This document shows positions 2,293 to 53,325 of a stretch of DNA of 64,000 nt, piece by piece. Under the pieces are notes generated by a model. It was not told where the DNA came from. It did not search any database and was given only the letters and a program-made list of their open reading frames with translations. The translations under genes and the position numbers were made by a program. Positions within the stretch are counted from its first letter, which is position 1; every line of letters starts with the position of its first letter. The stretch spans positions 4,110,501 to 4,174,500 of the forward strand of contig NC_019676.1 of the NCBI RefSeq assembly GCF_000316625.1, written 5' to 3'. This stretch comes from Nostoc sp. PCC 7107 (lineage in GTDB: Bacteria > Cyanobacteriota > Cyanobacteriia > Cyanobacteriales > Nostocaceae).

Positions 2293-3252
2293 ATGTCCTT
2301 TACTATCGAGTCTGCGCGCTCTATTTTTCCCGACACTCTAGTTGCTAATGTGGTTCCGGCTACGGTTGAATCATGTAATCAACTCAGCGCTGAGGATCAG
2401 TTAGCTTTGCTTTGGTTTGCTTATACCGAGATGGGAGTTACAATCACCCCCGCTGCTATGGGAGCAGCCAATATGGTCTTCGCAGAAAAAACTCTGACGC
2501 AAATTAAGCAGATGTCTGCGGAGAAGCAAACGCAAATGATGTGCGATCTAGTGAACCATGCTGATACTCCCATCTGCCGTACCTATTCATCTTTCGGCAC
2601 AAACATCAAGTTGGGCTTCTGGTATGAGTTAGGCGAGTGGATGAAACTAGGAATCGTTGCCCCGATTCCAGAAGGTTATAAACTTTCTCCGCAAGCATCA
2701 GATGTTCTCGAAGCTATCCGTCAACTTGAAGGCGGTCAGCAACTCACTGTATTACAAAATATTGTCGTTAATATGGGGTATACCTCAAAGGTTAGCGCGC
2801 AAAACGTCAAACAACCTGTGGTTCCACCTCAAGATATCGCGCCAAGAGCTAAGGTCAGCATTGAGGGCATCGATAACTTAACAGTCCTCAGCTACATGGA
2901 GAATATGAACGCCTTTGACTTTCAAGGGGCTGTGGCTTTATTTACTGAAGATGGTGCCTTGCAACCGCCTTTCCAGGAACCGATTGTGGGTCAGAAGAAC
3001 ATCCTCGCTTATATGCGTGAAGAATGCTACGGACTCAAGCTCATACCAGAGCGAGGGGTAACTGAATCAGCAGCAGGAGAATTTACTCAGACTAAGGTGA
3101 TGGGTAAAGTCCAAACTCCTTGGTTTACTGACAGTGTTAGCATAAATCTAGCATGGCGGTTTTTGCTCAACCCGCAAGGACAGATTTTCTTTGTGGCAAT
3201 TGACGTGCTGGCATCTCCTCAAGAACTTATGGAACTGGGCTTGATCCGATAG
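2293..3252 (+). CDS. orange carotenoid protein (OCP), Gln155 variant
   Basis: A full-length 319-residue OCP with the helical N-terminal carotenoid-binding domain (about 1-165), a linker, and an NTF2-like C-terminal domain (about 195-319). In the OCP family this water-soluble photoswitch quenches phycobilisomes after blue-light activation. The numbering aligns without gaps to the Synechocystis protein: Tyr44, Trp110, Asn104, Tyr201, Glu244, Trp277 and Trp288 are all present, so carotenoid binding and the Asn104-Trp277 contact should be intact. Position 155, normally the Arg that pairs with Glu244 and contacts the phycobilisome, is Gln. Positions 19 and 27, which form an intersubunit contact in OCP1, are Asn and Ser. 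It is probably a divergent paralogue and not a canonical OCP1. No FRP gene is nearby. Confidence 0.93.
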   Translation: MSFTIESARSIFPDTLVANVVPATVESCNQLSAEDQLALLWFAYTEMGVTITPAAMGAANMVFAEKTLTQIKQMSAEKQTQMMCDLVNHADTPICRTYSSFGTNIKLGFWYELGEWMKLGIVAPIPEGYKLSPQASDVLEAIRQLEGGQQLTVLQNIVVNMGYTSKVSAQNVKQPVVPPQDIAPRAKVSIEGIDNLTVLSYMENMNAFDFQGAVALFTEDGALQPPFQEPIVGQKNILAYMREECYGLKLIPERGVTESAAGEFTQTKVMGKVQTPWFTDSVSINLAWRFLLNPQGQIFFVAIDVLASPQELMELGLIR

Positions 3253-47433: not shown

Positions 47434-47865
47434 TTACCTAATATTTTTCGTTTGTGGCTGAGGCGACATTAAAGATGGACGCGGCGTAACATGATTGCGT
47501 AAAAATAGTAAAGGAATACTCAGCAAGCCTAAAATCATCACAACTGCGGTGAGAATCCAAACAGGTAAACGATTAGGGCGATAGTCACCGCGTTCAATTT
47601 GCCAGAACACCTGATTATATCGCCAAGCAGCTAAAGCGATCGCACCTACTCCCACAATCACTAAAGCAACTCCTAAATTTTCCGAGTTAAATAGCGGATG
47701 TACTGTTGGTTCTTGTTGCGTAATTGCCGTATTTAATTGGCGTAAAAATAGACCAAACCTTGCAATGGCAAAACCAAAACCAATTAAAGCGATGGAAGTT
47801 CTCAACCAAGCTAAAAAAGTTCTTTCATTGGCTTGATGTTCCCGTTGGCGGTCTATTTTATTCAT
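47434..47865 (-). CDS. DUF202 (YidH-like) membrane protein
   Basis: A 143-residue protein with three membrane helices. The N-terminal REHQANERTFLAWLRTSIALIGFGFAIARFG is the DUF202 hallmark. Helix two is around residues 68-85 (LGVALVIVGVGAIALAAW) and helix three near 103-123. It is the last gene of the MNIO operon, 12 bases after the partner gene, so it may help anchor or transport the modified proteins. The biochemical function of DUF202 is unknown. Confidence 0.88.
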   Translation of the reverse strand: MNKIDRQREHQANERTFLAWLRTSIALIGFGFAIARFGLFLRQLNTAITQQEPTVHPLFNSENLGVALVIVGVGAIALAAWRYNQVFWQIERGDYRPNRLPVWILTAVVMILGLLSIPLLFLRNHVTPRPSLMSPQPQTKNIR

Positions 47866-47877
47866 GAGTAAACTAAT

Positions 47878-48468
47878 CTACAACTCCTGATACTCTCCGC
47901 GCCTCTGCGACTCTGCGTGCGGTAATATTATATGACGTAAGTGCGATCGCCCCGATAAACGCCACCAGATTGCCAAAGTTGGTTTTGCCGTAAAATCATG
48001 ATGTACCGCGAAACGCAACCAACAAAATTTTAAACAAACTCCAGGTTCATAAGCTAACAGCCAAGTTTGTTCATACCTGGCTAAATCACCTATCCAAGCA
48101 GGTGCTAAATTTTCATTGTGCGCCACCTTAATCATAAAGTTAGCAAAAGCGATCGCATCATCCCGATGTTTTTTAATTCCCGTGGGTAAATAAGTCTCTG
48201 CATATCGCCAAAACAAAGAATTAAAATTTTTCCCCAACGCCTTAGCTGTTCTGGGTAAAAGTTCCCGTATTTCCCCTAACCGTTTCCACTTCAAAGAATT
48301 AGCGAATATATTGACTTCCTGTGATGAAACTTCTGCTAACTGCTGCGCCTCATCACTACTCAAACCCAACTCCACACCCACAGCTTGGGGGTTGGCAAAA
48401 AAACGCTCTCGAAATTCAGTATTAGTATAAAGCTGGGCTAAAACTTGCTGGGTTTGTGCTAACCCCAT
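47878..48468 (-). CDS. MNIO partner protein (HvfC/BufC-like role, SCO6045-like)
   Basis: A 196-residue protein. Residues 1-50 (FRERFFANPQAVGVELGLSSDEAQQLAEV) resemble RiPP leader or recognition modules. A helical region follows (KRLGEIRELLPRTAKALG, FWRYAETYLPTGIKKHRDDA) of the type seen beside DUF692 genes in actinobacteria, then a C-terminal strand region. Partner proteins of DUF692 enzymes bind the precursor and present it to the enzyme. It overlaps the DUF692 gene by 10 bases. The last 13 residues (HAESQRRGEYQEL) are encoded by a dispersed genomic repeat and are probably a late addition. Confidence 0.65.
   Translation of the reverse strand: MGLAQTQQVLAQLYTNTEFRERFFANPQAVGVELGLSSDEAQQLAEVSSQEVNIFANSLKWKRLGEIRELLPRTAKALGKNFNSLFWRYAETYLPTGIKKHRDDAIAFANFMIKVAHNENLAPAWIGDLARYEQTWLLAYEPGVCLKFCWLRFAVHHDFTAKPTLAIWWRLSGRSHLRHIILPHAESQRRGEYQEL
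47884..47925. repeat. dispersed CTCTGCG-type repeat forming the 3' end of a gene
   Basis: The stretch carrying CTCTCCGCGCCTCTGCGACT and then CTGCGTGCGG is the common Nostoc CTCTGCG heptad repeat. It lies inside the partner gene and encodes its final residues. Confidence 0.6.
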
Positions 48469-49295
48469 CTTTGATAACTCCTACCAATTTTTCGTGCTAT
48501 CTCCAATTCTTGGGCTATTTCTGAAAACGGAGGTAAATTTTCATCCCGTTCTAAAACTATCCCTTTGACGGGAATGCGGGCTACAACTTCCTCTATTATT
48601 TGCCAAACTTCCGGCGGTGTAGACTGGGAATGACTATCAATTAATACACCATCATGCCAATGTCCACCAACGAAATGCAACTGTACAACACGTTCCCACG
48701 GTAATTCTTTGAGAAAATCATGCACATCATAACCATAATTCACCGCATTGGTATGTAAATTAGTTACATCCAACAGCAACCCACAGTCAGCACGTTCTAC
48801 CACTTCTGCCAAAAATTGGGCTTCGGTCATCTCTGCACCAGGAAGTTTTACCATATAGGTAATATTTTCCAGAATTAACGGCACATCAACAAAGCGCCGC
48901 ACTTCAGCAATATTGCGACAGAGTATATCTACCGCCTCTTTGGTGTAAGGTAAGGGTGACAAATGCCCAATATCCACACCGCCAGCTTTAGTAAAACAAA
49001 TATGTTCACTCCACCAAGGCGGGTTAAGTTGTTTAATTAAGGTTGCAAGTTTGCGTAAATAATCTGTATCTACACCTTCCGCACTACCCAACGACAAATT
49101 AATGGCGTGGGGAATTATCGGGAAATGTGCAGCTAGTATTTCTAATTCCTGTTGTTTTTGTACAGGTACATCCAGATAATGTTCTGCGACAATTTCGAGA
49201 AAGTCCACTTGTTGACGGTTGAGAAACAAATCACTTTTGAATGGTTCTCGAAAACCCAACCCGACACCCAAAGTAGGAAGTTGAGATAACATCAT
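48459..49295 (-). CDS. DUF692 multinuclear non-haem iron oxidase (MNIO)
   Basis: A 278-residue TIM-barrel enzyme of the MbnB/TglH/BufB family, whose characterised members oxidatively modify Cys or nearby residues of ribosomal peptides. Metal-ligand motifs are complete: H63 in HAINLSLG, E97-H98 in WSEHICF, E143 in ENITYM, D176 and N179 in LLLDVTNLH, H207 and H212 in LHFVGGHWHDG, D220 and H222 in DSHSQSTPPEVW, E249 in VLERDENLP. It follows the third tail protein by three bases, with GGAG inside that tail's last codons as its ribosome binding site, and overlaps the partner gene. Confidence 0.93.
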   Translation of the reverse strand: MMLSQLPTLGVGLGFREPFKSDLFLNRQQVDFLEIVAEHYLDVPVQKQQELEILAAHFPIIPHAINLSLGSAEGVDTDYLRKLATLIKQLNPPWWSEHICFTKAGGVDIGHLSPLPYTKEAVDILCRNIAEVRRFVDVPLILENITYMVKLPGAEMTEAQFLAEVVERADCGLLLDVTNLHTNAVNYGYDVHDFLKELPWERVVQLHFVGGHWHDGVLIDSHSQSTPPEVWQIIEEVVARIPVKGIVLERDENLPPFSEIAQELEIARKIGRSYQRWG

Positions 49296-49298
49296 TTT

Positions 49299-50351
49299 TT
49301 AGTCTCCACCGCCACAACCACCACAGCCGCCACAACCACCGCCACCGCAGGAACCGCTACAACCGCCACTACAGCCACCGCCACTACAACCGCCAGAACT
49401 ACTATTTTGCCAATTGGCGGTATTTATCACAGGTACAAAAATATTTTGATATCTGTCGTAACGAGTTCCTGCAAATAAATCAAAACCATAGAGTGCTACA
49501 GCCAAGTTATATTCAAACTCGGAAGGAATACCAATTTCTGCTTTTTGTTTTAACTGGGCGAAAGTTGCTTCAGGGATATCAGCTTGAATTTTCGGTTTTA
49601 ATTGCTTGAATGTTGCTTCCAGTTGGTTTAAATACTCTCCCCCCAGACTACTGCGACGAGATATCTCACAGGTACTCTGAAGAAAGTAAAACGAGAATAT
49701 TCCCATCAGCACGAGATAACCCACATTATTGCGACTATGTAACGAAGTTACTACCAACTTAAAGCCGCCCAAACCGACAATGATAGAAATTCCTATCCAT
49801 TTGATTAACTCTGTTCTAGCTTTCAGGCTGTCGGAAGTTAGCAGTTGTTCATTTAGGAGTTGCTGTTGATAAACTGTGCAGTGTGGCTGTAATTGTCTAG
49901 CTAATAACCATCCAGATGTTCTTGGTGTTGTTGGCGTAGCAAACCAATCAAATGCTTCACGCTGTATGGTTGTTAGCAGAGATACATCAGGATGATTTTC
50001 CGCTTGCTGGATAGACTCTTCTGTGATTTGTAAATAACCGCGCTGTGACAAGTCCATCACTGCTACCTTAGCGACTCCGATTTCTTGAGAACGCAGGTAA
50101 GCAATTTTGTAAGAATCTGGTTCAAGAGGAATTAACGGTAAAGGTTGATTTTGTGTGGGATCTTGCACTAGCCAACTACTAACTAGCACTGTGATAGTCA
50201 CAATAGCACCATAGAAAAGCAGAAAATCATGATCAGGCATATCTGGTACTATTGTTGCGATCGCCACTACTGAACCTATCGCCACTGAAATAATCAGTAA
50301 CTTGAGTATTACCGATTTTGTGACTGTGCTTGGTACAGGTTTATCTAACAT
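49299..50351 (-). CDS. TIGR04222-type membrane protein with Cys-Gly tail (tail protein A)
   Basis: A 350-residue protein: one N-terminal helix pair (about 12-60), a soluble segment containing EPDSYKIAYLRSQEIG shared with its two neighbours, then two helices (about 190-235), a second soluble region ending near DLFAGTRYDRYQNIF, and a 34-residue tail (317-350) made only of Gly, Ser, Cys and a terminal Asp, with seven Cys. The tail ends with three CGG units. Predicted to be an MNIO substrate because it lies three bases from the enzyme gene. Confidence 0.82.
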   Translation of the reverse strand: MLDKPVPSTVTKSVILKLLIISVAIGSVVAIATIVPDMPDHDFLLFYGAIVTITVLVSSWLVQDPTQNQPLPLIPLEPDSYKIAYLRSQEIGVAKVAVMDLSQRGYLQITEESIQQAENHPDVSLLTTIQREAFDWFATPTTPRTSGWLLARQLQPHCTVYQQQLLNEQLLTSDSLKARTELIKWIGISIIVGLGGFKLVVTSLHSRNNVGYLVLMGIFSFYFLQSTCEISRRSSLGGEYLNQLEATFKQLKPKIQADIPEATFAQLKQKAEIGIPSEFEYNLAVALYGFDLFAGTRYDRYQNIFVPVINTANWQNSSSGGCSGGGCSGGCSGSCGGGGCGGCGGCGGGD

Positions 50352-50397
50352 TCTCTACGTCTCAATTTTTCAGACAGCCTGTTGTATGACATTCTCT

Positions 50398-51339
50398 CTA
50401 ACCGCCACAACCACCGCAACCACCACCACAAGAACTACCGCAGGAACTCCCACTACTGCATGAACTACTACTGCATGAACTACCGCCAGAACCACTACTA
50501 CAGGAACTACTGGACGAACTACTGCGGCTACTTGTCGTAGAATAAGCTGGCGGAAAGAACGCTTTATAGTAAGCATTGTAAGGAGTTCCAGCCAAAGACT
50601 CAACACCAAACAGTGCTAATACCAGTAAGTTGTTGTTGACTATGGAAGTTTCCCGCAGTTGGTTGAAGGTGCTTTGAAGTTGTTGCAGATACCTGTTTCC
50701 GAGATGACTTAGGGAGGGATGGGGCTGACTCACAAACCACAGCAGGTAAATAATAGACGACACACCCATAATTATCAAAAAACCAACGTTATGGTGTCCT
50801 TTACCCAAAGCTATCAGCAGCTTATAGCCACCCAAGCCAAAAATCAGCATCGCCCCAACTAAGCCCACTTGGATATTCCATTCTTTCCACTTGACTGCAT
50901 ACAGTAATTTTTCATCTTCCAACTGTTCTTGATAAGTATTGCAGAATGGTTTTACATACTCGGTAGCCAACCACAAAGATGTTTTAGCCGTAGCAGGTTC
51001 AGACAACTTCTCAAAAACTTGTTGTTCGGCTGGTTGTAAATTTGATATGTCAGGATAGCTGGGTATTTTGCTAATAGTCTGTCCGCTAACTTGCAAATAA
51101 CCTTGTTGAATCAAGTTGAATAATACTAAATGAGCAATTCCTTTTACTTGAGAACGCAAGTAAGCGATTTTGTAAGGATCTGGTTCAGCCGGAATTAACG
51201 GTAAAGGTTGATTTTTTGTGGGATCTTGGACTAATCGCCCACACAATAACAAAGTTGCGATGATAACAATACCATACAATAGCAGAAAGTTTGGCCCATA
51301 CATATCTGCAACTGGATTATGCAGTAATGTATCCATCAC
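50398..51339 (-). CDS. TIGR04222-type membrane protein with Ser/Cys tail (tail protein B)
   Basis: A 313-residue paralogue of the genes on both sides: an N-terminal helix, EPDPYKIAYLRSQVKG, two central helices (about 165-210), and LFGVESLAGTPYNAYYKAFF before the tail. The tail (about 270-313) starts with an uninterrupted Ser run, then has seven Cys spaced by Ser and Gly, ending CGGGCGGCGG. The Ser-rich start distinguishes it from tail protein A although the Cys count is the same. It is separated from A by 46 bases. Confidence 0.82.
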   Translation of the reverse strand: MMDTLLHNPVADMYGPNFLLLYGIVIIATLLLCGRLVQDPTKNQPLPLIPAEPDPYKIAYLRSQVKGIAHLVLFNLIQQGYLQVSGQTISKIPSYPDISNLQPAEQQVFEKLSEPATAKTSLWLATEYVKPFCNTYQEQLEDEKLLYAVKWKEWNIQVGLVGAMLIFGLGGYKLLIALGKGHHNVGFLIIMGVSSIIYLLWFVSQPHPSLSHLGNRYLQQLQSTFNQLRETSIVNNNLLVLALFGVESLAGTPYNAYYKAFFPPAYSTTSSRSSSSSSSCSSGSGGSSCSSSSCSSGSSCGSSCGGGCGGCGG

Positions 51340-51458
51340 TTTTACTCCTTATAAGGAAATTCCTAAAGTTAGGAAAAATTAATTGTCAAAATTTTGGCAG
51401 CGGTTTTTTAATACATCTCGCTTTTTTAACTCTGCAAAGTATTATATCACACTAAGTT

Positions 51459-52442
51459 TTAGCCACTACCACCGCAGCCACCGCAGCCACCACCACCGCC
51501 ACCTCCGCCACCACCACCGCAGCCACCGCAGCCACCACCACTACTTCCTCCTGCATTATGGCTAGTGACTAATGGCGCGAAAATGTTGGCAAAATCCGTG
51601 TAGGAAGTTCCATGTAAGATTTCTACACCAAAAATGGCTACAGGCAACAACATATTCAAATCTGTGTCATTTCTGTCATCGGATATGGTGCGAATGATTC
51701 TGTTTTTAAGTTGTATAAAACTTTGCTGAAGTTGTTTTATATATCTTTCTCCCAGTTGAGTTCGTCTGGATGGATAAGAGAGCAGTATAAAAATAATCCA
51801 ATAAACTAGACCTATAATAATGAGAAATAAAACATTGTTATATCCTTTAAGCAATGCTATTGAAAGCTTATAACTACCCAAACCCAAAATAATACAACTT
51901 CCCAAAGTACTGATTGTCTTTGCTAAGTCTCTGGCAGTTTTGGGTAGTAAAAGTTGCTCATTTAATAGCGATTCTTCGTAAGTTTCACACCAGAATTTGT
52001 GGATAATGGTGTTTGAGATGGTGTCACTGAGTGTTTGATTAGCTAATTTTGGAAAAACAAAATAGTCAAATACGTGTCGCTCTATGATGGATAAATTATC
52101 TGCATAAGAATATGTGGTTGACTGCTCTATGGTATCTTTATTAATTTGCAAATAACCATCCTGAAGCAGATTAAATATTACTAAGCGTATAACCTCACTT
52201 TCTCCACCACGTAAATATGCAATTTTATAAGGATCAGGGTTGCTAGGAATTGATGGTAAAGGTAATTGTGCCGTTGCGTCAAACTTTAAATTATAGTAAC
52301 TCGCCAATAAAGTTACAGTAATAATGCCAGCATAAAAAACCAAAAAGTGCGGCCCATACATATTTGCAATGGGGTTATTCAAGGGGCTACGAATCGTCAC
52401 TATCAGCAACATACTTATAATCGTAAGTAATAATTTATCCAT
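51459..52442 (-). CDS. TIGR04222-type membrane protein with Gly/Cys tail (tail protein C)
   Basis: A 327-residue paralogue, the first gene of the operon: one or two N-terminal helices, NPDPYKIAYLRGGESE, two central helices (about 180-230), LPVAIFGVEILHGTSYTDF, and a 30-residue Gly tail (298-327) carrying two CGGC motifs separated by eleven Gly. It has only four Cys. It has the longest upstream spacer (119 bases before gene B), so B and A may also have their own promoter. Confidence 0.82.
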   Translation of the reverse strand: MDKLLLTIISMLLIVTIRSPLNNPIANMYGPHFLVFYAGIITVTLLASYYNLKFDATAQLPLPSIPSNPDPYKIAYLRGGESEVIRLVIFNLLQDGYLQINKDTIEQSTTYSYADNLSIIERHVFDYFVFPKLANQTLSDTISNTIIHKFWCETYEESLLNEQLLLPKTARDLAKTISTLGSCIILGLGSYKLSIALLKGYNNVLFLIIIGLVYWIIFILLSYPSRRTQLGERYIKQLQQSFIQLKNRIIRTISDDRNDTDLNMLLPVAIFGVEILHGTSYTDFANIFAPLVTSHNAGGSSGGGCGGCGGGGGGGGGGGCGGCGGSG

Positions 52443-52536: not shown

Positions 52537-53325
52537 TCACTCGCCACATTTAATTCTCAATTTCGTCCCACATCTTTTACAAAAAGCCGCATCTAAATCA
52601 TGAAAAGCTAAACCACAACCTGAACATATCGTTTCTACCTGATTTACATTTTTTACCAAACGTTTAATTAAATCTCCCACTTGCCAAGGAATTAAGCCTA
52701 CACCTGTTAAAATCATCAATACAGTTAACAAACGACCGACTTCAGAAATTGGCGCGATATCCCCAAATCCGACGGTTGTCATAGTGACAACCGAGAAATA
52801 AAACGCATCTAAAAATGTAGTGTAGAGTGGATTTACAGGATGTTCAACTTGATAAATTAACCCCGAATAAATAAAAATAATGGCAAATAATGTAAATAAT
52901 ATCCGCACGAAGATTAAACTATCTTCACTACTGACACTGGCAAACAAAAACTTCTGATCAATAAACCGAATTAACCTTAAAATCCGAAACCATCTCAGTA
53001 GGCGAATAAAGCTAATATCTACTGCGCCGAGAAAAAATGGCAATATCGCCATTAAATCTAGAATTGCATAAAAGCTAAAAATATACTTAAGCTTGTTTTC
53101 AGCACTCCAGAGGCGAATTATATACTCTACCGCAAAAATTACCAGGATAGCAGTATCAACAAAATCAAGCTCCAATCTTATATTATAAGGAATATTATAA
53201 GTTTGAGCTACAAAAATACCTGACGAAATTAGTACTAAAGCGGCAATTGTCAGATTGATAATTTTACCTATAGGTGTTTCCAAGTCTGTTAAATAAAATT
53301 CTGTTTTTTCTCTACTTAACAACAT
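52537..53325 (-). CDS. voltage-gated potassium-type channel with C-terminal zinc ribbon
   Basis: A 262-residue six-helix channel. S4 is RLLRWFRILRLIRFID with regularly spaced Arg; the pore loop carries TTVGFGDI, the K-selective filter. After S6 the chain continues through a short basic segment into a zinc ribbon with CSGCG and CKRCG pairs (about residues 238-257). The zinc ribbon is unusual for a bacterial Kv channel and may be a sensor or assembly domain. It lies 94 bases upstream of the tail-protein operon on the same strand, so cotranscription is possible. Confidence 0.88.
   Translation of the reverse strand: MLLSREKTEFYLTDLETPIGKIINLTIAALVLISSGIFVAQTYNIPYNIRLELDFVDTAILVIFAVEYIIRLWSAENKLKYIFSFYAILDLMAILPFFLGAVDISFIRLLRWFRILRLIRFIDQKFLFASVSSEDSLIFVRILFTLFAIIFIYSGLIYQVEHPVNPLYTTFLDAFYFSVVTMTTVGFGDIAPISEVGRLLTVLMILTGVGLIPWQVGDLIKRLVKNVNQVETICSGCGLAFHDLDAAFCKRCGTKLRIKCGE

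Follow-up and report, generated by a model that had tools for sequence, protein, structure and literature searches.

Several pathways built around an MNIO enzyme resemble the operon described here, which lies on the minus strand of a 64,000-nucleotide stretch (the window) of the genome of Nostoc sp. PCC 7107 and encodes three TIGR04222 membrane proteins with Gly/Ser/Cys tails alongside an MNIO, a small partner protein and a DUF202 membrane protein. MNIOs are iron enzymes of a family that remodels cysteine. In the bufferin system (Buf1/Buf2, with BufB and its DUF2063 partner BufC) the Cys product is a thiooxazole, according to the sections of PMC12452194 used here (Antoine et al. 2025). TglHI (3-thiaglutamate) is likewise among the closest known systems, and in the Pfl/Pos pathway of Pseudomonas the precursor carries an NHLP leader and is modified by an MNIO-nitroreductase fusion, with a related cluster present in strain Os17 (PMC12636437, in the parts consulted). 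Cyanobacterial MNIOs of the ChrH/DybH group act on precursors of >34 kDa, and lipidated MNIO products as well as action at C-terminal motifs of large proteins are described, which together set a precedent for large, membrane-tethered products (portions of PMC12636315). The initial annotation of the window, which took MNIO targets to be small soluble peptides, has been overtaken on this point.

The idea that TIGR04222 proteins are MNIO substrates is already in print as a prediction: Antoine et al. (2025) proposed it for the Cys-tailed subsets of the family. In the sections of that paper used here, TIGR04222 accounts for 40% of the more than 1,000 Cys proteins without a signal peptide that are encoded before MNIO genes, over 10% of TIGR04222 genes lie after an MNIO gene, 490 of 1372 genomes with TIGR04222 have no MNIO, and most of the family is found in Actinomycetota. 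PMC5183585 mentions TIGR04222 a single time, as a predicted ribosomally synthesized and post-translationally modified peptide (RiPP). Our literature search, which took in few subscription papers, returned no product chemistry for the TIGR04222-MNIO pairing.

The operon of the window represents a real, recurring system, in which a predicted cytoplasmic tail and a leader-like module, free or fused to the enzyme, go beyond the published prediction. It is supported at the level of sequence by linked genes, a clade of MNIOs, residues that are conserved, a module that recurs, retention of the tail Cys and a charge bias. We propose, with a probability of roughly 0.55, that a dedicated MNIO and its leader-like partner oxidise Cys residues of cytosol-facing TIGR04222 tails, most plausibly giving a metal-binding or metal-sensing element. 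The MNIO, aided by the small leader-like domain of the partner, would act on Cys in the flexible Gly/Ser/Cys tails; since the tail would be cytoplasmic, the enzyme could reach it after membrane insertion of the TIGR04222 protein, with no need for export. What results would be a modified Cys tail, anchored in the membrane and facing the cytosol, that most plausibly binds or senses metal (copper). We infer the tail as substrate, Cys as the modified residue, the side of the tail and the metal binding, and we take the chemistry by analogy from the bufferins. If this is correct, the target of the MNIO is a resident membrane protein, modified where it sits, and not an outbound peptide, and the product works at the cytosolic face.

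The clusters of Antoine et al. share with ours the pairing of Cys-tailed TIGR04222 with MNIO and the proposed substrate; PME-type 2 partners, a type marked by a TglI/NGO1945-like fold, the absence of a DUF2063 signature and a gene placed after that of the MNIO, are given for at least 10% of them. They differ in that the tail is placed in the periplasm and, in the sections used here, tail Cys are not tested against MNIO presence; the main text has no occurrence of NHLP, Os1348, DUF202 or cyanobact. To that account the present analysis adds a tail that charge and homology suggest to be cytoplasmic, a clade of linked MNIOs, a module resembling a leader and three tandem copies of the membrane protein. 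The bufferins stand close as well, in that the best NCBIfam match of the window MNIO is MNIO_BufB, although it fails that cut-off (245 vs 310 bits); DUF2063 (PF09836) matched neither the window partner nor any of six linked partners tested, and, unlike in the bufferins, no signal-peptide precursor was seen in the operon. In contrast to Pfl/Pos, the leader-like module is here a separate partner or is fused to the MNIO, and the proposed substrate lacks it.

The window MNIO scores 304.8 bits against PF05114 (cut-off 25), aligns to the solved MNIOs 3bww, 8hci and 7dz9, and is the sole PF05114 match in its genome (6.33 Mb, one contig). Ten candidate metal ligands (H63, H98, E143, D176, N179, H207, D220, H222, E249 and D251) are invariant in 15/15 aligned MNIOs; the initial annotation had described a DUF692 MNIO with its ligands in place. 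That annotation also noted that TIGR04222 and DUF692 genes co-occur elsewhere; linkage recurs in cyanobacteria, Planctomycetota, Chloroflexota and one betaproteobacterial metagenome-assembled genome. In a tree of 43 MNIOs, comprising every linked enzyme with a full match to PF05114 (17, counting L181) and 26 of the 41 unlinked matches, the 16 linked MNIOs and L181 form one clade (support 85/84) apart from the 26 others. MNIOs adjoining TIGR04222 genes probably constitute one clade across four phyla, with moderate support. An approximately unbiased test of a clade restricted to the 16, with L181 excluded, returned p 0.08. The Cys-tailed open reading frame (ORF) that L181 adjoins is only weakly TIGR04222-like (E 6.6e-6 and 1.9e-5 by domain, 0.25 over the whole sequence). 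Genomes G412, G404, G507 and G296 each carry both a linked-clade and another MNIO, as does G038 if L181 is counted.

The tails were compared in genomes drawn from cyanobacteria (292), Planctomycetota (294), Chloroflexota (301) and Pseudomonadota (299), with Actinomycetota outside the sample; MNIO absence is less sure in the draws from the other phyla, for which there are no completeness figures. TIGR04222 matches occurred in 14 of the cyanobacterial genomes (13 over the NCBIfam cut-off of 43 bits), 25 of the Planctomycetota (12 over), 39 of the Chloroflexota (2 over) and 17 of the Pseudomonadota (13 over); PF05114 matched in 17 cyanobacterial genomes (16 over its cut-off), and five held both. 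From 55 proteins collected seven were dropped, leaving 48: L121, L123, L124, L125 and L126 lay below the cut-off, L120 (49 bits) had the wrong frame picked, and L122 (48.1 bits, over the cut-off) is a DUF2207 protein without tail Cys. L044 (34.3 bits) and L051 (21.8 bits) were kept despite scoring below the cut-off, L031, L033 and L036 were included without a TIGR04222 score of their own, G511:C243 (56.5 bits, an N-terminal fragment) is outside the set, and L117 is truncated by a contig end. L049 (4885-6227), a Cys-tailed short TIGR04222 gene adjoining an apparent MNIO fragment, was counted as linked by the fragment match (E 1e-4), though PF05114 found nothing in its genome, G053.

Cys tails do not depend on an MNIO, yet they are Cys-richer next to one. 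Counted in the last 60 residues, at least two Cys were present in 20/20 proteins adjoining an MNIO and at least five in 17/20 (median 6); with the MNIO elsewhere in the genome these figures were 7/9 and 4/9 (median 4). Linked proteins differed from all unlinked proteins pooled (at least two in 22/28, at least five in 11/28) with p 0.001 in a Mann-Whitney test not corrected for kinship, and with p 0.0004 once L049, whose linkage is weak, and the two rows below the cut-off were left out; when the linked Nostocaceae were dropped too, the difference weakened to p 0.03. Upstream of the last 16 residues the median number of Cys was 3 in 21 linked proteins, 1 in the nine with an MNIO elsewhere and 0 in the 19 without.

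Several results weigh against the proposal. Proteins from genomes without an MNIO match had at least two tail Cys in 15/19 cases (14/17 without L044 and L051, 15/20 with L122) and at least five in 7/19 (median 3), and 9/19 of them had CGGCG in the last 16 residues. Nine of the 14 cyanobacterial TIGR04222 genomes lack an MNIO match, and all nine hold a tail with at least two Cys (one of them, G118, scores below the TIGR04222 cut-off, and another, G053, is counted by the protein adjoining the MNIO fragment). The Cys tail is therefore a trait of TIGR04222 and not proof of an MNIO substrate, and it would have a use without the enzyme. Four independent pairs could be placed on the tree, in which a tail of at least five Cys agreed with MNIO linkage in an average of 2.7 (median p 0.25); with so few contrasts, covariation is not established beyond kinship. 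Nor do the linked TIGR04222 proteins form a single clade: five changes are needed on the tree, and L117 and L118 lie among unlinked proteins. Finally, no metal-related gene family was recognised among those common to 16 compared loci.

The initial annotation had proposed the tails as MNIO substrates, asked whether their Cys vary with the MNIO, and held that Cys tails equally common without DUF692 would speak against it. What we found lies between these: tight linkage, a distinct MNIO clade and a Cys tail in every linked protein favour the substrate reading, and the tails of MNIO-less genomes count against it; Cys tails are indeed widespread there, at half the median number, and the enrichment next to the MNIO is seen before kinship is considered but is not established beyond it.

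A possible but rather doubtful alternative is that the tails work without modification, their Cys-Gly end being intrinsically thiol- or metal-binding, and that the MNIO, where present at the locus, modifies only the extra Cys or some other residue. It would account for a CGGCG end that occurs both without the enzyme and with it (19/20 linked proteins), and for the difference in upstream Cys. However, linked proteins are richer in terminal Cys as well (p 0.002, uncorrected), a separate MNIO clade adjoins TIGR04222 genes in four phyla, and two relatives away from any MNIO, L119 and L152, have no tail Cys. The latter belong to a clade of 14 short TIGR04222 proteins in which the 12 linked members have a Cys tail and these two unlinked ones, in genomes G404 and G1077 respectively, have none. 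G404 offers a natural experiment, since it holds both the linked L116 (7358-8299), with six tail Cys, and its unlinked sister L119 (7477-8355). That some other modifying enzyme takes the place of the MNIO next to Cys-tailed genes without one was also considered and rejected: among directly adjoining neighbours at 10 loci (BLAST E 1e-5; L049, later counted as linked, included), the only gene with a relative at another of these loci was a methyltransferase-like one, at two close relatives.

TIGR04222 proteins come in two sizes. The 21 MNIO-linked proteins are short forms of at most 363 residues (L117 and L181 being cut or partial), and the 13 unlinked short forms have from 0 to 9 tail Cys. Long forms (>430 residues) bear an N-terminal [VA]W[HQ]xH motif in 12/15; none of these 12 adjoins an MNIO, and eight retain CGGCG near the end. 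L036, L043, L045 and L048 are among the long forms with the motif that keep the Cys-Gly end without an adjoining MNIO. The motif is presumably that of GRDP-like proteins, although a Pfam scan of seven long forms gave no GRDP-like domain match. Within the window, all three membrane proteins score above the TIGR04222 cut-off. The orthologue of protein 3 in the nearest named relative in the comparison, Nostoc sp. LEGE 06077 (locus L031, MNIO 96% identical), retains 7/7 tail Cys; across the 37 tail codons that align, seven differences are synonymous and three change the amino acid. Protein 2 has relatives in five more Nostocaceae loci; its AlphaFold2 model (mean predicted local distance difference test score, pLDDT, 72.5) has a tail of low confidence, a fold search of the Protein Data Bank (PDB) with it gave no match at E 0.001, and a plasmid search with the protein matched nothing.

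The positions of charged residues suggest that the TIGR04222 tail is cytoplasmic, contrary to its published periplasmic placement. Of 47 proteins taken for this analysis eight lacked the expected pattern of transmembrane (TM) segments; in 35 of the remaining 39, Lys and Arg were more numerous after TM1 than before it (means 2.5 vs 0.46), and the 20 residues after TM3 held 4.4 on average. Two features weaken the argument: the TM2-TM3 loop, in many cases 5-8 residues long, has Lys and Arg too (mean 1.9), and in short forms the stretch before TM1 often falls below 20 residues. Two TM segments precede the domain in 11/12 long forms with the [VA]W[HQ]xH motif and one, without preceding Lys or Arg, in most short forms, a parity that fits a cytoplasmic domain and tail. 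Homology to DUF2207 proteins points the same way. The low scorers L122 and L126 (Chloroflexota draw) and L124 (Planctomycetota draw) are DUF2207 proteins, matched by a profile of our TIGR04222 set at E 3e-20, 5e-13 and 2e-11, respectively; all three scanned have the N-terminal DUF2207 domain, and in them a start resembling a signal peptide is followed by the DUF2207 N-domain, then by TM1 and the TIGR04222-aligning region. By hydropathy L122 and L126 share the TM1-TM2-TM3 order, while L124 lacks the last segment at the threshold used. These three end in Gly-rich tails like those of TIGR04222 but, together with L123, differ in having no Cys in the last 60 residues; the best 10 of 131 papers in a literature search on these tails held nothing relevant.

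The charge bias, TM parity and DUF2207 homology would together put the tail in the cytoplasm, alongside the enzyme, which disputes the published topology. Antoine et al. placed it in the periplasm from AlphaFold2 models and TM topology, in the sections used here. A periplasmic tail could still be the MNIO substrate, provided that its modification preceded membrane insertion or coincided with it, as in the bufferins; given the three lines of evidence above, we consider this improbable.

The N-terminus of the partner had been described as RiPP-leader-like in the initial annotation, and its best family match is indeed NF038399 (Os1348 NHLP family; E 5e-8), but at 32.8 bits against a cut-off of 40 the tie to that leader family is a resemblance only. 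The six linked relatives tested all matched NF038399 at E 0.017 or better (15.2-27.6 bits, all below the cut-off), partners of other MNIOs did not (0/4), and some partner modules also match LigA and Nif11 weakly. The model carries the name NH_RiPP_Os17, presumably after the precursor of strain Os17. A module of about 60 residues is present at 17 of the 18 linked loci, in 14 by profile (eight of which belong to the build set; the L033 match begins at profile position 28) and in three by eye (L112, L117 and L118, the last two aligning in their second half only); at L049, the sole exception, it was not found. The module is a separate small protein (79 or 97 residues) in L115 and L034, and the MNIO ORF runs on into it at the C-terminus in L114 (3470-4642, by profile) and L112 (1249-2646, by eye).

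From this resemblance and the NHLP leader on the Pfl/Pos precursor, we tentatively suggest a RiPP leader acting in trans, which would have left the substrate, become the partner and, in some lineages, been fused to the C-terminus of the enzyme. Such a leader would account for the action of the enzyme on a protein that has no leader of its own, and it could be put to use in modifying Cys tags of choice. The AlphaFold2 model of the partner (mean pLDDT 66.5) is helical to about residue 140, with the remainder of low confidence. Its top three structural matches after realignment were TglI (twice) and NGO1945, although none was significant in Foldseek itself; a partner profile reached E 0.12 at best against PDB sequences, with the RiPP precursor SonA and nitrile hydratase among the weak matches.

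That TIGR04222 is instead a membrane anchor or exporter, with the true substrate encoded elsewhere, would suit the gene order and the MNIO-less genomes reported in PMC12452194 but is quite unlikely, as the operon has no other Cys-rich ORF of at least 60 residues listed on its strand and no other Cys-rich family recurs in linked loci (BLAST E 1e-8, which small divergent peptides could escape).

The gene content given in the initial annotation, including the three Cys-tailed TIGR04222 proteins and a DUF202 gene in the same minus-strand unit, holds (Table 1).

Table 1. The TIGR04222-MNIO operon of the window, in minus-strand order from 52442 to 47434
Feature	Coordinates	Strand	Remarks
TIGR04222 membrane protein 1	51459-52442	-	75.2 bits; ends GGCGGCGGSG; 4 Cys in last 60 residues
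TIGR04222 membrane protein 2	50398-51339	-	90.8 bits; listed GTG start; 7 Cys in last 60 residues; ends CGGGCGGCGG
TIGR04222 membrane protein 3	49299-50351	-	57.0 bits; 7 Cys in last 60 residues
MNIO (PF05114, MbnB/TglH/ChrH family)	48459-49295	-	E 6e-91
MNIO partner, 196 residues	47878-48468	-	
NHLP/Os1348-like module of partner, residues 1-63	48280-48468	-	NF038399, 32.8 bits (below cut-off)
DUF202 membrane protein	47434-47865	-	PF02656, E 2e-20

The third TIGR04222 gene is separated from the MNIO gene by 3 bp, the MNIO and partner genes overlap by 10 bp, and 12 bp lie between partner and DUF202 gene, spacing that would fit a single transcript. DUF202 was rejected as a core part of the system: among the loci scanned for neighbours, only L031 carries it. 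Directly upstream of the operon lies a gene for an ion-channel protein (Ion_trans, Ion_trans_2; 52537-53325), which has two C-terminal CxxC pairs with weak zinc-ribbon matches. This gene adjoins the operon in 4/6 Nostocaceae loci, accompanied by a two-component pair and a gene resembling deaminases, and is absent at L037 and L038; it was likewise rejected as a core part and probably reflects an old gene order. At L160, in a genome (G197) of the same order as that of the window, a 98-residue ORF (2713-3009) upstream of a divergent MNIO ends in CPACGMG, the motif given for DybA in the portions of PMC12636315 used here.

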